DNA of 40,128 bases from an uncultured Bacilli bacterium (lineage in GTDB: Bacteria > Bacillota_I > Bacilli_A > RF39 > UBA660): positions 1 through 40,128 of the forward strand of contig CALVHY010000043.1 of the NCBI GenBank assembly GCA_944329205.1, in the 5' to 3' direction. Position 1 is the first letter of the stretch; each line of letters begins with the position of its first letter. This document shows positions 1 to 20,417 of the stretch, piece by piece. Position numbers and translations under genes: made by a program. The notes under the pieces were generated by a model. It had not been told where the DNA came from, ran no database searches, and was given only the letters and a program-made list of their open reading frames with translations.

Positions 1-743
1 TTTCGATATACTTCTTCTATTTTTTTCTTATTCTTTATATAATTCTTACTTCCTTTAATCTTTCTTGACAATCCTTGTTGTAATCCCTTTATCTTTCTTT
101 CATATTTATCTAAATATTTTGGATTACCATAATATTCTTTATTACTGGTAACAACTAAGTTTTTTACTCCTATATCTATTCCTACTGAGGTATTATTTCT
201 TCTTTCTGACAACTCTATTTCTTCTTCTACACATACAGACACATAAAATCTATTACCTACTTCTCTAATCGTGGCATTAAGTATTCTTCCTGGTAATTTT
301 TCTAAATTACGATATCCTCTTATCTTAACTTCTTTTAATTTAGGTAATTCAATTACTCTTCTTTTTAAATCTACTTTTATATTCTCATAGACAGTACTTT
401 TATAACTACTAGTAATAAAACTAGTACGAAAGCTTTCTTTAATTCCTTTTTTCTTAAATTTAGGATATCCACCTTGGTGTTTTTCGTGCTTATCAAAGCC
501 TACCATTAAATCAGTAATAGTACTTCTTAATGATATACTATCTACTTCTTTTAAAAAGGGATATTCTTTTTTTAATTTTGGTAACTCTTTCATTAAATCA
601 AATTTAGTTAAGTATTTATTATTTCTTTTTAAATCTAAACAATAATTATAAACGAATCTTGTACATCCAAAAGTTTTATGAATTAATGCTACTTGTTCTT
701 TAGTGGGATATAATCGAAATTGATATGCTTTATGTATCTTCAT
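1..743 (-). CDS. tnpB: RNA-guided endonuclease TnpB (IS200/IS605 OrfB), 5' part, runs off the window
   Basis: About 247 N-terminal residues are present; the 3' end lies beyond base 1. The protein begins MKIHKAYQFRLYPTKEQ, the typical TnpB/OrfB helix-turn-helix start, and has the RuvC-I motif VGIDIGVKN with the predicted catalytic Asp at residue 190. The ATG at 743-741 follows an AAAGGGGG ribosome binding site, and a near-consensus promoter lies just upstream. TnpB proteins of this family are RNA-guided DNA nucleases that help retain IS200/IS605 transposons; their guide RNA usually overlaps the 3' end of the gene, here out of view. No tnpA is visible on the promoter side. Whether the gene is intact cannot be judged, because the RuvC-II, zinc-finger and RuvC-III regions are missing. 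Confidence 0.9.
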   Translation of the reverse strand, partial: MKIHKAYQFRLYPTKEQVALIHKTFGCTRFVYNYCLDLKRNNKYLTKFDLMKELPKLKKEYPFLKEVDSISLRSTITDLMVGFDKHEKHQGGYPKFKKKGIKESFRTSFITSSYKSTVYENIKVDLKRRVIELPKLKEVKIRGYRNLEKLPGRILNATIREVGNRFYVSVCVEEEIELSERRNNTSVGIDIGVKNLVVTSNKEYYGNPKYLDKYERKIKGLQQGLSRKIKGSKNYIKNKKKIEEVYR

Positions 744-769
744 AAGAATTAACCCCCTTTGATAATAAA

Positions 770-798
770 AGTATATCACAAATACATATGTTCGTCAA
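770..798 (-). promoter_or_regulatory. Promoter of tnpB
   Basis: On the minus strand TTGACG (798-793) and TATACT (775-770) are separated by exactly 17 bases. The predicted transcript starts about 20 bases before the tnpB start codon. Upstream (815-831) is a 5-bp TACAC/GTGTA inverted repeat that could be a subterminal hairpin of the IS left end, but it is too short to be sure. Confidence 0.7.
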
Positions 799-934: not shown

Positions 935-1351
935 TTAACGCTTTGAGAATTGTGGAGCACGACGAGCTTTTTTAAGTCCGTATTTCTTACGTTCTTTTAC
1001 TCTAGCATCTCTTGTTAAGAAGCCATTTGCTTTTAAAATTTTACGATAAGAATCTTCTCTTGTTTGATCCGTATTCTCATCAAATTTTAATAGGGCTCTT
1101 GCAATACCTAAACGAATAGCTCCCGCTTGGCCAGAATATCCGCCACCGTTTACAGTAACTTCAATATCAAAACGATTGATATTATCTGTAACATCTAATG
1201 GTTGTTTTAAATCCATAACTAGGATCTTGTTTGGGAAATATTCGTTAACATCAACACCATTAACAGTAATATTTCCTGTTCCACCAGTAAGTCTTACTTG
1301 AGCAGAACTTCTTTTACGACGACCTGTTGCGGTCCATACTTGTTTTGCCAT
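935..1351 (-). CDS. rpsI: 30S ribosomal protein S9
   Basis: The 138-residue protein has the S9 signatures [13 protein letters not shown] near the N-terminus, [19 protein letters not shown] in the middle, and a basic tail ending [12 protein letters not shown]. In the family this tail reaches the decoding centre and touches P-site tRNA. Length is normal for S9 (about 130). The ATG follows AGGAGG in the 10-base gap after rplM, so it is the second gene of the conserved rplM-rpsI pair and probably shares the rplM promoter. A hairpin terminator lies directly downstream. Confidence 0.97.
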
Positions 1352-1361
1352 TTAAATCCTC

Positions 1362-1793
1362 CTAATCAATATTTAGGGCTGTAGGTTTCCCTGCTTCGTG
1401 TTTATGTTCTGAACCTGCATAAACAAATAATTTTTTGCCCATAGCTCTTCCTAAAGAATTATGGGGAAGCATTCCTTTAACAGCTCTTTCTACCATTTCT
1501 TCGGGATATTTTTCAACCATTACTTTAGCGGGCCTTTCTCTTAAGCCTCCTGGATAACCAGAGTGATTGTAATACATCTTGTCATTTAACTTATTACCTG
1601 TTAAATTAACCTTTGCGGCATTAATAATGATTACATAATCTCCACAATCTACAGAAGGTGTATAAGTTGGCTTGTGTTTTCCTCTTAGAATAGTAGCGGC
1701 TTTAGTAGCAACTCTACCAAGAGTTTTTCCTTCGGCATCAATTACATACCATTTACGTTCAACGTTTTCTTTTTTTTGCATGAATGTTTTCAT
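1362..1793 (-). CDS. rplM: 50S ribosomal protein L13
   Basis: The protein has 143 residues starting [19 protein letters not shown] and contains the L13 core [20 protein letters not shown] and [19 protein letters not shown]13 is an early-assembly protein of the large subunit. The frame stays open upstream to 1904, but that extension overlaps a consensus promoter and a structured leader. The ATG at 1793 has an AAAGGG ribosome binding site and gives the normal family length (142-145), so I use it. It is transcribed first, with rpsI following 10 bases later. Confidence 0.97.
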
Positions 1794-1813
1794 ATTTTTA
1801 TCCCTTTCATTTA

Positions 1814-1854
1814 GTCTTTTTGCTTCCGCTTTCCCAAGGCATGGCAAAATAGAC
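1814..1854 (-). promoter_or_regulatory. Structured 5' leader of rplM, probable L13-leader autoregulatory element
   Basis: In the minus-strand transcript GTCT-(A)-TTTTGC (1854-1844) pairs with GCAAAA-AGAC (1823-1814), a 10-bp stem with one bulged A, enclosing a GC-richer inner part with a possible small second hairpin. It lies in the roughly 75-base untranslated leader between the rplM promoter and its ribosome binding site. Bacilli commonly carry an L13-binding leader at this point; assignment to that class is by position and fold, not by a covariance search. Confidence 0.6.
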
Positions 1855-1875
1855 AAATAAAATGTACCAGTTAAA

Positions 1876-1904
1876 ATTATATGTAAAATAATGACATTTG
1901 TCAA
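1876..1904 (-). promoter_or_regulatory. Consensus sigma-A promoter of rplM-rpsI
   Basis: TTGACA (1904-1899), 17-base spacer, TATAAT (1881-1876) on the minus strand: both hexamers and the spacing match the consensus exactly. It drives rplM-rpsI separately from the upstream truA cluster. Confidence 0.88.
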
Positions 1905-1927: not shown

Positions 1928-2269
1928 TTAATTGCGACTTTTATAATTTTCTTTTATAATTCCTTGCTTTTTTAATTCATTTAGTCCTTCTTTTATAGCT
2001 AGTAAAGTTTCTTTTCTTGGTCCATATTTAGTTCTTAAATTTAAAGACTTGCTATAAGCATGAGTTAAAGTAAGTAAATTATAAATGGTATTATTATCAA
2101 TTTGGGCTAGTTCATCATTATTTACTATCAGTTTAAATAGTTCTAGTAAGTCTTTGACGAGGGTTAAAGCTTTTAAATTCGAGTTTTTTTGCTTATTGGG
2201 AGTTCTTAGAAGAGTAATAAATTCCTCGTACTTTTGATAAAATAAATTAACATTATTTGATTTATTCAT
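1928..2269 (-). CDS. Uncharacterised small helical protein downstream of truA
   Basis: A 113-residue protein, rich in Leu, Asn and Lys, with no signal peptide, transmembrane stretch or cysteine pair. It looks all-helical. The most distinctive part is the C-terminal half (LRTKYGPRKETLLAIKEGL). It starts inside the end of truA with an 8-base overlap, so translation is probably coupled, and stops before the rplM promoter. The overlap and the clean frame argue that it is a real gene. I do not recognise the family and assign no function. Confidence 0.7.
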   Translation of the reverse strand: MNKSNNVNLFYQKYEEFITLLRTPNKQKNSNLKALTLVKDLLELFKLIVNNDELAQIDNNTIYNLLTLTHAYSKSLNLRTKYGPRKETLLAIKEGLNELKKQGIIKENYKSRN

Positions 2270-3002
2270 CTACTTCACTTCCATATTCAATTTTATTTAA
2301 ATATAAACCATTGGGGATGGCCGTTTTAAACTGCTTTTTTATTTCGGGATGTTCTAAAGCTTTTTTTATATCTTCAATACTTGCTTTAGTATTAGCAACA
2401 TCAAGCATAGCTCCGATTAAATTTCTAATCATGTATCTATAAAAGCTTTTGCCAATAAATTTTATGAGTAAAATATTATCTTTTTCAATAAATTTTATAT
2501 CATAGATAATACTTTCATAATTAGATCTTTTTCCGGATGTAAAATTTTTAAAGTTGTGAATGCCTACAAATAATTGAGAACATGCGACCATTTTTTTTAT
2601 ATCAGGTTTAGGATCAGGTTGATAATAATAATCAGCATATAAAGGATTATACTGCCCCATATTAATTTTATATATATATTCTTTTTTTAAAACATTAAAA
2701 CGAGGATGAAAGTTTGGGGGGACTTGTTTAATGTTAGTTATGTAAATATAAGGATGCAAAAGACGATTTAAAGCTTTTTGCAAGGATAATAAATCAATGT
2801 TTATACTAAGGTCAAAAGTAGCTTTGGCATCATATGCATGAACACCGCGATCCGTTCTTCCAAAGCCTTTAATAAGAACACTTTGTTTAGCAATAATACT
2901 TAAGGCTTCTTCTATGCTTTTTTGAACAGTATGGTGCTTTAATAAGCGTTGAAAGCCATAAAATTTAGAACCGTCATAGGAAATACTAATTAGATATCTC
3001 AT
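2262..3002 (-). CDS. truA: tRNA pseudouridine(38-40) synthase TruA
   Basis: The 246-residue protein begins MRYLISISYDGSKFYGFQ and carries GFGRTDRGVHA, which contains the catalytic Asp (residue 51). The later NFTSGKRS and YRYMIRNLIGAML segments are also typical. TruA isomerises uridines 38-40 in the anticodon arm of many tRNAs. The length matches the family. The ATG overlaps the stop of the preceding ATPase-like gene by 4 bases. In many Firmicutes the order is ecfA1-ecfA2-ecfT-truA-rplM-rpsI; here ecfT is absent and the two upstream genes are degenerate. Confidence 0.96.
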   Translation of the reverse strand: MRYLISISYDGSKFYGFQRLLKHHTVQKSIEEALSIIAKQSVLIKGFGRTDRGVHAYDAKATFDLSINIDLLSLQKALNRLLHPYIYITNIKQVPPNFHPRFNVLKKEYIYKINMGQYNPLYADYYYQPDPKPDIKKMVACSQLFVGIHNFKNFTSGKRSNYESIIYDIKFIEKDNILLIKFIGKSFYRYMIRNLIGAMLDVANTKASIEDIKKALEHPEIKKQFKTAIPNGLYLNKIEYGSEVDE

Positions 3003-3619
3003 CCATTCTCCTTTAAACGATAGATGGCTTTTAATAGTTCATTACTTTCATAATAATATTTCATATCTATACCTTTAGCTTGAATTAGTTCAATGAATTT
3101 AGTAATTTCCGCTTTATCAAATAAGTCTAATACTTTGGTATAGGCTTCTTCTTTGATGGTATAAGATACTTTGTTTTTATCTATTAATATTATTTCTTTG
3201 GCTATATCCCATAAACTAGTTATATCATTAGTAAAGATAATAATTGTTTTTTTGTAGTCTACAGTTAGTTTCTTCCATAATCTTTTGAAATAACTTTTTT
3301 CTTTGTCTGTAAGCTCTTTATCAAAATAATCGAGAACTATATATTCCTTATTTTCAATTAAAGCTTTAGCAAGACTTACTTTTTTTAAATCACCAATTGA
3401 TAGCTCTGAAGATTTTTTGGTTAATATTTCGTCTTTTAAAAGAGCCATTTTGAGGGAAGAAGTATCTTTGGGACTATTTAAGTATTCTTTTACCGTACTG
3501 TTAAACTTTGTGTCAGTAATAATATTGTAGTTTTTGTTATTTGAAGTTAAATTAATGTTTCCTACTAAACCATAAATGTTACTTTTAGGTTTGCTTTCAA
3601 TAATATTTGCTATTTCCAT
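2999..3619 (-). CDS. Degenerate ABC ATPase, EcfA2-like position, without a Walker A motif
   Basis: This 206-residue protein keeps an ABC signature-like SELSIGDLKKVSLAKAL (71-87) followed by a Walker B-like EYIVLDYFD (92-100). The C-terminal part (ITKFIELIQAKGID, then an NELLKAIYRL end) resembles the tail of EcfA2 ATPases. The P-loop is missing: the expected place reads GLVGNINLTS with no Lys. The residue after the Walker B Asp is not Glu, and the switch region reads TND where THD is usual. It should not hydrolyse ATP in the ordinary way. The frame is clean and overlaps both neighbours (10 and 4 bases), so it is maintained as a gene. Its position before truA is that of ecfA2; homology to EcfA2 is inferred from position and motifs. 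Confidence 0.75.
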   Translation of the reverse strand: MEIANIIESKPKSNIYGLVGNINLTSNNKNYNIITDTKFNSTVKEYLNSPKDTSSLKMALLKDEILTKKSSELSIGDLKKVSLAKALIENKEYIVLDYFDKELTDKEKSYFKRLWKKLTVDYKKTIIIFTNDITSLWDIAKEIILIDKNKVSYTIKEEAYTKVLDLFDKAEITKFIELIQAKGIDMKYYYESNELLKAIYRLKENG

Positions 3620-4212
3620 AAATCATCCACCAATTCTTGATTATTATAATATGTTTTATTTACTAATCCATATAGTTTCAAATTATTTGATAATTCGACG
3701 ATAAAAGGTAAATTAAAACCAAGTTTATTTATTATTTTTTCTTCTTGTAAAACTAATTCTTTTTTCCCTTCCATAATTACACTGTTGTTGTGAATTACAA
3801 TTAAATAATCTAATAAAAGAGTTTCTTCGATTTGGGTAGTATAGTTAATTATACGCTTGTTATTTGTTTTTAAATAAGATATTATTTTTTCTTTAAAGGG
3901 TTTATCTAAATATGTCAGAACATTAAAGAAAACAAATACTTCTTTGTCGCTATTTAAACTTGATAAAATTTGAAGTTTTATCTCATCTATTTTAGATAAA
4001 TCACTTTTACTTTTTAAATCTTCTTCTTTAAATAATTTGTATAAATCATCGGATATATCATAACTTTGGGGGCTACTATCTTTGGTAATAACTAGACAAT
4101 TATTATTAATAAAATATACAGCATCTTCATTATAATTAAAAGATGGAGTGTATAAGATAGTAGTATCTATATCTTGAATATCCTTATCATTTACTTGAAA
4201 CATCACTTTCAT
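3610..4212 (-). CDS. Degenerate ABC ATPase, EcfA1-like position, without nucleotide-binding motifs
   Basis: A 200-residue protein and the first gene of the truA cluster. The middle part EVFVFFNVLTYLD (91-103) lines up with the Walker B/D-loop of ABC ATPases but lacks the acidic pair. YLIVIHNNSVIMEGKKELV (136-154) matches the strand and turn after the H-loop. NKLGFNLPFIVELSNNLK (162-179) closely resembles the C-terminus of EcfA1. No Walker A and no LSGGQ-type signature can be found. With the next gene it forms a pair of ATPase relics in the ecfA1-ecfA2 slot, without ecfT. The conserved C-terminal half suggests a retained structural role, but function is unknown. The ATG follows GGTGAAG. Confidence 0.7.
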   Translation of the reverse strand: MKVMFQVNDKDIQDIDTTILYTPSFNYNEDAVYFINNNCLVITKDSSPQSYDISDDLYKLFKEEDLKSKSDLSKIDEIKLQILSSLNSDKEVFVFFNVLTYLDKPFKEKIISYLKTNNKRIINYTTQIEETLLLDYLIVIHNNSVIMEGKKELVLQEEKIINKLGFNLPFIVELSNNLKLYGLVNKTYYNNQELVDDLWK

Positions 4213-4230: not shown

Positions 4231-4259
4231 ATAATACCAAATTATTGAGAATTTTTAAA
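4231..4259 (-). promoter_or_regulatory. Possible promoter of the ATPase relic-truA cluster
   Basis: On the minus strand TTTAAA (4259-4254), 17 bases, then TATTAT (4236-4231), shortly before the 4212 start codon. The -35 is weak; spacing and position support it. The rest of the 4260-4364 gap shows nothing recognisable. Confidence 0.4.
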
Positions 4260-4364: not shown

Positions 4365-4403
4365 AAGAAAAGATGTTGGTAAGTTTGCTGTTACTAACAT
4401 CTT
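4365..4403 (-). terminator. Terminator after rpmE
   Basis: AAGATGTTGGTAA (4370-4382) and TTACTAACATCTT (4391-4403) form a 13-bp stem with one non-Watson-Crick pair and an 8-base loop, about 30 bases after the rpmE stop. On the minus strand it runs into TTTCTTTT. The tail is imperfect, but the stem is too long for chance. Confidence 0.7.
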
Positions 4404-6821: not shown

Positions 6822-6893
6822 ATATTTTTTACAATTTTGGGTTAATTTGAATAAAAATTAGCAAAATATACTTAATTATTATGGGTGAAGATG

Positions 6894-7397
6894 ATGAAAA
6901 AGATTATAGTTTTGCTGTTTTTAATAAGTTTAACTTTTCTTTTTTTTAATAAAGAAGAGGAAATAATTATTCCTAAAAATGCTATTAGATTTAGAGTAAT
7001 TGCTAATAGTAATAGTAGTATAGACCAATTGGAAAAATGGCAGATTAAAGAAGAGGTGGAAAAAAAGATTTATGATCTTATAAACGGGGCTATAAATACC
7101 CAAGAAGTTCGAAGTATTATTGAAGATAATATGGATGTAATTGAACAGATTGTGGATGATTATGGCGTTGATTATCAAATTAATTATGGTGATAATTACT
7201 TTCCGGCAAAAAGTTATAAGGGCATAGTTTATCCGGCTGGTAATTATGAATCTTTAGTAATTACCCTTGGAAGTGGGGTTGGCAATAATTTTTGGTGCGT
7301 TCTTTTCCCACCTTTGTGTTTGCTTGAAGAAAGTAAGGATGATATTAGTGATGTAGAATACCAGCTATATGTTAAAAAATTGCTAGAGGGGTTCTAA
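6894..7397 (+). CDS. spoIIR: Stage II sporulation protein R (SpoIIR)
   Basis: After an N-terminal hydrophobic export segment (about residues 3-18) the protein shows the SpoIIR hallmarks: AIRFRVIANSNSSIDQ, then FPAKSYKGIVYPAGNYESL and NNFWCVLFPPLCLLEE near the C-terminus. In Bacillus, SpoIIR is secreted from the forespore under sigma-F and triggers SpoIIGA to activate sigma-E in the mother cell. I chose the ATG at 6894, because GGTGA lies 5 bases before it; the frame also permits GTG 6885 and ATG 6891. At 168 residues it is shorter than the Bacillus protein. mntP follows 41 bases later, as spoIIR and ywlD/mntP are close neighbours in B. subtilis. It is one of three sporulation-type genes here. 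Confidence 0.93.
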   Translation: MKKIIVLLFLISLTFLFFNKEEEIIIPKNAIRFRVIANSNSSIDQLEKWQIKEEVEKKIYDLINGAINTQEVRSIIEDNMDVIEQIVDDYGVDYQINYGDNYFPAKSYKGIVYPAGNYESLVITLGSGVGNNFWCVLFPPLCLLEESKDDISDVEYQLYVKKLLEGF

Positions 7398-7438: not shown

Positions 7439-7972
7439 TTGCAAGAATTGTTTAGTATTTTTCTTATTGGAATAGCTCTTTCCATGGATACTTTTTCTTT
7501 ATCACTGGGAGTGGGCATGTTTGGTATAACAAATAAAAAAGCTCTTAAGTTAACGCTTATGGTTGGGGCAATGCATTTTATTATGCCTTTTTTAGGAATG
7601 AATTTGGGAGATAAATTAATTAAAATTTTTGAGATAAAATATGATATTTTATTAGGGTTTGTATTGATAATTATTGCCATACAAATGATTATTGATATTA
7701 TTAGGAAGGAAGAGGAAAAGTTTAATTTGTCCTTGGGCGGAATATTACTTTTTGCTTTTGGGGTTAGTTTAGATAGCTTTTCACTAGGATTAGGATTAAA
7801 AGCAATTACGACAAATATTTATTTGGCTATGAGTGTTTTTGCAATATGTAGTTGTGTTTTTACTTACTTGGGTATCCTTTTAGGTAGAGTTGCTAATAAA
7901 GTGCTTGGGGTATATGCTAATATTTTGGGAGCAATAATCTTATTCATTATGGGGATAATGCATTTAATATAA
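7439..7972 (+). CDS. mntP: Putative manganese efflux pump MntP
   Basis: A 177-residue integral membrane protein with about six hydrophobic helices in two similar halves. Each half carries an acidic signature within a helix: ALSMDTFSLSLGVG near residue 16 and GVSLDSFSLGLGL near residue 105. These are the paired Asp motifs of the MntP (DUF204) family, which exports Mn2+. Translation starts at TTG 7439, 8 bases after a strong TAGGAGG site; no ATG alternative preserves the first helix. The neighbouring spoIIR matches the B. subtilis spoIIR/ywlD region. The related sporulation protein YtaF has the same fold, so substrate assignment is by similarity. Confidence 0.88.
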   Translation: MQELFSIFLIGIALSMDTFSLSLGVGMFGITNKKALKLTLMVGAMHFIMPFLGMNLGDKLIKIFEIKYDILLGFVLIIIAIQMIIDIIRKEEEKFNLSLGGILLFAFGVSLDSFSLGLGLKAITTNIYLAMSVFAICSCVFTYLGILLGRVANKVLGVYANILGAIILFIMGIMHLI

Positions 7973-9544: not shown

Positions 9545-9747
9545 AAAAACCATAAACTAAGGACGAGTTAACCCCGTGGTACCACCTTAATTCATGATTT
9601 TTATTCATGCCCTTTTATCATGATAACGGTTGACTAACCGTTTAAACTCCGGAGTCATCTTCCTTATTACTTAGTGTTTATTTTCAGCGACCATAAACTC
9701 TCTTTAAGCTTAAGTAATACGTACTCATTCCTTCAACGTTTAAGATA
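9545..9747 (-). promoter_or_regulatory. T-box riboswitch, methionine specifier, upstream of metG
   Basis: The minus-strand leader contains the T-box sequence AAGGTGGTACCACG (9588-9575), a stem I with an AGTA element (GAATGAGTACG), and a specifier loop GGAAGATGAC in which ATG (9658-9656) is the methionine codon. A stem AACGGTT/AACCGTT follows. The terminator is explicit: CATGAATTAAGG (9596-9585) pairs over 12 bp with CCTTAGTTTATG (9562-9551), then a run of T (9549-9544). In the family, uncharged tRNA-Met binds the specifier and T-box and stabilises the antiterminator, so metG is read when charged Met-tRNA is low. Confidence 0.96.
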
Positions 9748-20291: not shown

Positions 20292-20305
20292 TTTATCACT
20301 CCATT

Positions 20306-20384
20306 AAAAAAGTGCACACAAATAGGGATTGATGTGGCTGCTACTTTCCAGTCCTGACCAGGTTACAATATATTTGTTGCACAT
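20306..20384 (-). ncRNA. ffs: Signal recognition particle RNA, small bacterial type
   Basis: The minus-strand sequence contains the conserved SRP domain IV: CTGGTCAGGACTGG, then AAAGTAGCAGCC. The ends pair (GTGCAACAAATA with TATTTGTGTGCAC), giving a single hairpin of roughly 75 nucleotides, followed by TTTTTT before tadA. It binds Ffh and targets nascent membrane and secreted proteins. Many Bacilli have a larger 6S-like SRP RNA with an Alu domain; this one is the short form. Confidence 0.93.
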
Positions 20385-20388
20385 ATAT

Positions 20389-20417
20389 AATTTATCATAA
20401 TTTTACTTTAAAATCAA
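20389..20417 (-). promoter_or_regulatory. Promoter of the SRP RNA gene
   Basis: TTGATT (20417-20412), 17 bases, TAAATT (20394-20389) on the minus strand. The predicted start coincides with the 5' end of the SRP hairpin. Confidence 0.6.

Follow-up and report, generated by a model that had tools for sequence, protein, structure and literature searches.

Two overlapping genes in the window (the whole 40,128-nucleotide stretch of DNA from an uncultured Bacilli bacterium analysed here) were identified as the orthologues of EcfA1 (orfB) and EcfA2 (orfA) by gene order, profiles, structure search and a protein tree, and both are under strong purifying selection and are not pseudogenes. By membership they are descendants of EcfA1 and EcfA2, and their sequences suggest that they are not functional ECF ATPases. 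The pair descends from the two ATPase subunits of a group-II ECF vitamin transporter and, by its motifs, has become a pair of pseudo-ATPases. The best explanation, which we consider fairly probable, is an obligate EcfA1-EcfA2 heterodimer that was repurposed as a nucleotide-independent scaffold and had this function before EcfT was lost.

The minus strand carries, in this order, rpmE, a gap of about 220 nt, orfB, orfA, truA, a 113-aa gene, rplM and rpsI, and the ancestral operon order is kept at this locus except for ecfT (Table 1). The ancestral position of ecfT is between orfA and truA; in the window orfA directly adjoins truA, whose start lies inside the orfA stop in a 4-nt overlap. The claim of the initial annotation that ecfT is gone is supported by this adjacency and by the lack of a CbiQ (EcfT) match in the genome of the window, one MAG of about 93% completeness. 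Both reading frames are clean, and the identical 10-nt A1/A2 overlap was found in 42 of 50 EcfT-less and 33 of 34 EcfT-bearing loci (75/84). Such coupling favours equimolar synthesis, which fits the expectation for an obligate heterodimer. The fast-evolving gene of about 110 aa that follows truA is found in the sub-branch of the genus to which the window belongs, with counterparts of 21-33% identity in L094 and L096-L098, in tandem in L098. Many congeners carry a membrane-anchored protein of 430-500 aa just upstream of orfB, which is absent in the window; these proteins form one family with no Pfam match (sequence DYWWRIIRINGDGTVRLIYNG...; L085 7883-9319, L088 7437-8906, L096 3905-5188 and similar). 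The SpoIIR and putative MntP genes of the window point to sporulation genes in a reduced genome.

Table 1. Positions of the orfB-orfA-truA unit and of other features in the window.
Feature	Positions	Strand	Length	Remark
OrfB/TnpB-type IS605 gene	1-779	-		cut by window edge
rplM + rpsI	935-1904	-		downstream end of ancestral ecf operon
gene after truA	1928-2269	-	113 aa	no family match
truA, tRNA pseudouridine(38-40) synthase	2262-3002	-		constant downstream neighbour of the pair
orfA	2999-3619	-	206 aa	EcfA2-derived pseudo-ATPase
orfB/orfA overlap ATGGAAATAG	3610-3619	-	10 nt	encodes W-K-stop of orfB and M-E-I of orfA
orfB	3610-4212	-	200 aa	EcfA1-derived pseudo-ATPase
candidate promoter of orfB-orfA-truA unit	4231-4259	-		TTTAAA-17-TATTAT with preceding TG; consensus match only
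hairpin	4370-4403			candidate orfB-orfA-truA promoter sits below it
SpoIIR	6885-7397	+		
putative Mn efflux pump (MntP)	7439-7972	+		
T-box leader	9556-9745	-		upstream of methionyl-tRNA synthetase-like gene
small bacterial SRP RNA	20295-20393	-		

The descent of the pair was traced by several comparisons. The best NCBIfam match of orfB was ECF_ATPase_1 (1e-12, residues 71-199 onto 136-269) and that of orfA was ECF_ATPase_2 (1.1e-10, residues 53-196 onto 125-274), both matches lying mainly in the C-terminal half and scoring far under the curated cut-offs; ECF_ATPase_1 was matched by all 27 genus copies of orfB. Profile search of PDB sequences ranked EcfA1 chains first for orfB and returned mixed ABC proteins for orfA, EcfA2 among them. 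The AlphaFold2 models of orfB (pLDDT 90, pTM 0.84) and of orfA (pLDDT 84, pTM 0.73, with the C-terminal 40 residues weaker) are ABC-type folds, as the initial annotation had proposed, and their best PDB fold matches were EcfA1 8bms_A and EcfA2 8bms_B, respectively. A protein tree of the C-terminal halves parted the A1 and A2 rows with a single change (SH-aLRT 99), and orfA and orfB can be aligned to each other over most of their length. The EcfA-like C-terminal regions reported for both genes are thereby borne out, and in orfA the N-terminal domain has also left a remnant, in compacted form.

Alignment to intact orthologues showed that Walker A and the catalytic Glu are missing from both proteins, in line with the initial annotation, and that the H-switch is missing too. 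In orfA there is no GxxGxGK[ST], the P-loop is replaced by YGLVGNINLTSNN, and the conserved IYGLMGN stands at its position as the N-terminal remnant; Walker B reads VLDY against LDE, in which the Asp is kept and the catalytic Glu is changed to Tyr, the H-switch reads TND against THD (His to Asn), and the signature reads LSIGD against LSGGQ. In orfB Walker A is absent, Walker B is FFN against LDE (D to F, E to N), the H-switch is YTTQ against THD (His to T), and the signature is LSKID against LSGGQ. None of Walker A, the Walker B Glu, LSGGQ and the H-switch was found in either protein in any sampled genus copy, and the Walker B Asp alone persists in most genus copies of orfA; the sampled genus copies have these substitutions in common. 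Half of the core, the C-terminal domains and the 10-nt gene overlap have been retained: orfB keeps the EcfA1-type C-terminal domain (EEKII..LGFNLPF..ELS..L..YG....ELV..LWK), and orfA keeps the EcfA2-type tail ELLKAIYRLK. Across the EcfT-less genera the strongest constraint falls in the C-terminal domains (A1 P169, F170, S175, L178, Y181 and W199; A2 K197, Y200 and R201), with A1 P169, S175, L178 and Y181 and A2 K197 and R201 conserved at 100%, although most residues conserved in EcfT-less A1/A2 are also conserved in intact EcfA, and conservation of A1 W199-K200 and of A2 M1-E2 is partly forced by the overlap of the reading frames.

The conversion is not confined to this genus. The search of 385 genomes of the order returned EcfA2-like proteins of widely differing length, and a profile built on the C-terminal region of EcfA1 matched 370 of the 385 genomes, about 335 of them at E < 1e-15. 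Pfam CbiQ detected EcfT in 89 of these genomes, but a count of EcfT loss from Pfam CbiQ alone was rejected as an overestimate, since iterated profiles revealed a divergent EcfT of 213-227 aa adjoining A2 in g39, g50, g60 and g77, some of which Pfam had missed; EcfT state was therefore scored by gene order. These short diverged EcfT genes stand beside decayed EcfA1/A2 in L219, L220, L222, L226-L227, L230-L231, L184 and L214, and the loci of the four genera are possibly intermediate non-transport ECF modules. The loci of the motif table, which were drawn from homology matches and not at random and whose frequencies are thus not unbiased, fall into a graded series: EcfT present with both ATPases complete (7 loci); EcfT present with catalytic residues missing from at least one of the ATPases; EcfT gone with A1 and A2 near full length and dead; and EcfT gone with both shortened, to 200/206 aa in the genus of the window and 145-157/181-187 aa in g33, g38 and g47. 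A1-A2-truA was kept in 51 sampled EcfT-less loci from 23 genera, none of which had the full Walker A, Glu and His set in either subunit, and neither subunit was complete in 19 of 35 EcfT-bearing loci. In the tree of truA, rplM and rpsI most EcfT-less rows fell into one 45-row clade (SH-aLRT 99), inside which the g107 and g113 rows still have EcfT, while the clade excludes the EcfT-less g42, g71 and one g82. At least 6 changes of EcfT state and 8 of the A1 catalytic set are needed on this tree, and A1 and A2 shorten progressively along it. Motif loss and EcfT loss are both recurrent across the order, and motif loss often came before EcfT loss, because the EcfT-bearing relatives show graded decay. 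To call the pair a relic understates a conversion that is recurrent and order-wide and not a local oddity.

Could the pair still serve transport? It would then dock on a strongly diverged, unrecognised T-like or S-like membrane protein from another locus and serve, independently of ATP, as a passive lid or as a platform for assembly. Relatives do combine EcfT with dead ATPases, and a T protein more diverged than the short EcfT of the four genera could escape detection. On the other side, no CbiQ match was found in 34 of the 36 genus genomes, and the genome of the window gave no match to PF12822 and PF07155, the two S-component families that the search covered; PF12822 S-components exceeded the cut-off in just 6 of the 385 order genomes. 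Moreover, the N-terminal half and the Q-loop region beside the EcfT docking groove are mostly lost, and the EcfT-less loci have nothing between A2 and truA. We regard a surviving transport role as rather unlikely, although it is the strongest of the alternatives. Two congeners, G010 (L082, 6255-8939) and G012 (L083, 2072-3964), have, at another locus, an intact S-A-T ECF module of the riboflavin type that contains one EcfA and an S gene matching PF12822 and PF07155; G012 is also the congener whose truA has lost its neighbouring dead pair.

The neighbourhood of truA had led to the suggestion of an RNA-related role, in which the pair would bind TruA or tRNA/ribosome and tune RNA modification. 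In almost every EcfT-less locus sampled, truA does lie directly downstream, as a rule with an overlap or a gap of a few bases, and in Mycoplasma EcfA1A2T contacts GatC, an example of an ECF module that touches a translation enzyme (PMC13047044). However, the linkage of the pair to truA is ancestral (PMC8046335), G012 has truA without the pair, and an A2-TruA fusion was seen in no locus. RNA binding was also considered from charge and gained no support, the net charge being -8 for the acidic orfB and +4 for orfA, which is only slightly basic. An RNA-related role is accordingly unsupported, and we judge it improbable; what stands of the earlier proposal is the conserved pair without catalytic motifs, for which a scaffold role appears plausible. 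The cluster of upstream genes of about 100 aa in relatives, which we take by sequence recognition only to encode SpoVG, YabP, YabQ, DivIC-like and Veg proteins, was rejected as the new partner; it is absent in the window and not found in all loci.

Another possibility is a nucleotide sensor with non-canonical nucleotide binding, for which the good Walker A in A1 of the EcfT-less g78, g88, g55, g109, g119 and g89 and the Walker B Asp of orfA could be taken as signs. No P-loop is present in either subunit in the genus of the window or in g33, g35, g38, g47 and g84, which rules out sensing as the function that these pairs have retained in common, and this reading seems to us quite improbable.

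Conservation was analysed in 36 genomes of the genus, among whose named relatives is Candidatus Caccenecus. Both genes were present without internal stop in 28 of them at 47-68% identity, which rules out a spurious ORF or chance resemblance. True absence in all eight remaining genomes was rejected: six lack truA as well and in G014 truA is cut by the contig end, so that missing or cut contigs account for seven absences and only G012 is left, in which truA stands at a rearranged site without the pair as the only apparent loss among the congeners. The dN/dS values (YN00), for which the conclusion rests on low-dS pairs only, were 0.06-0.24 for A1, 0.05-0.18 for A2 and 0.11-0.19 for truA in close unsaturated pairs; those of orfB and orfA were mostly 0.05-0.2 and about at the level of truA. 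Values for orfB/orfA/truA were 0.11/0.18/0.11 (G028-G030), 0.09/0.05/0.12 (L139-L140), 0.06/0.06/0.14 (L148-L149), 0.14/0.13/0.18 (L132-L134) and 0.15/0.14/0.18 (L129-L130). Distant pairs gave roughly 0.2-0.6, which is saturation-biased, and one A1 pair gave 0.84 (L131-L133, dS 0.38). The earlier view that the genes are not decaying agrees with these values far from 1 and with the absence of frame breaks in all 28 genus copies. That the pair is a slowly dying remnant of the ECF operon, with frames that stay open chiefly because they serve truA as translational leaders, would suit the shortening across the order, the apparent loss in G012 and the tight translational coupling to truA, but it is strongly disfavoured and very improbable, because a leader would not select amino acids, whereas the dN/dS is like that of truA and invariant residues are seen class-wide.

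When an ECF transporter works, ATP drives the EcfA-EcfA' dimer to close, and this closure shifts the EcfT coupling helices, which sit anchored in grooves of the two ATPases (PMC10368641, PMC4820897). Such closure is impossible here because the P-loops, the catalytic residues and EcfT are all absent. Under the scaffold explanation, the half-core and the C-terminal domains that remain would still hold the two proteins together as an EcfA1-EcfA2 heterodimer, and this static heterodimer may bind another cellular protein as a scaffold or adaptor without need of nucleotide. The function was probably present in the ECF module already, because EcfT-bearing relatives often carry dead ATPases. The orthology, the low dN/dS, the generality over 23 genera, the constraint in the C-terminal domains and the contrast between 370 of 385 profile matches and 6 genomes with PF12822 all speak for this explanation. 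Against it, the proteins keep shrinking, and the loss of the pair at truA in G012 means that the function is not indispensable everywhere.

The pair shares with group-II EcfA1/EcfA2 (TIGR04520/TIGR04521; PDB 5jsz, 8bms, 4huq) the gene order, the 10-nt overlap, the C-terminal sequence and the best structural matches. It differs in length (200/206 aa against about 270-290 aa) and in the lack of Walker A, the catalytic Glu, the H-switch, LSGGQ and EcfT, and S-components are few or none in the order. Among ABC exporters there are heterodimers in which one nucleotide-binding site is degenerate, with catalytic residues lost, while the other stays active and the transmembrane domains are kept, whereas here both sites are dead by motif and there is no known transmembrane partner. 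ECF parts have been recruited to new tasks in the EetB-FmnA-EcfAA' FAD exporter of Listeria (PMC9973259) and in the Mycoplasma GatC with an S-component domain (PMC13047044), but those modules keep the T subunit and, as far as described, working ATPases. The S-A-T modules of G010 and G012 are ECF parts of the same genus at a separate locus; unlike the pair, they have intact LSGGEKQR/DEATSMLD and their own T and S genes. No report of EcfT-less EcfA pairs or of ABC pseudo-ATPase scaffolds was found in the literature searched, which is not proof of absence.

Tentatively, we propose that in this order of reduced gut Bacilli the ECF motor may have been turned, on many occasions, into a soluble EcfA1-EcfA2 pseudo-ATPase complex that works without ATP and whose new cellular function, unrelated to vitamin import, would have been gained beside transport and have persisted after EcfT and every ATPase motif had gone. 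The motor is what defines an ABC ATPase, and this ABC heteromer has retained its identity throughout the order after repeatedly losing motor, membrane anchor and cargo. This suggests a second, ATP-independent role of EcfA1-EcfA2, which may be hidden in ordinary Bacilli too. The graded series, from active pairs with EcfT through dead pairs that have and then lack EcfT to truncated ones, is a natural dissection of the surfaces that this role needs.
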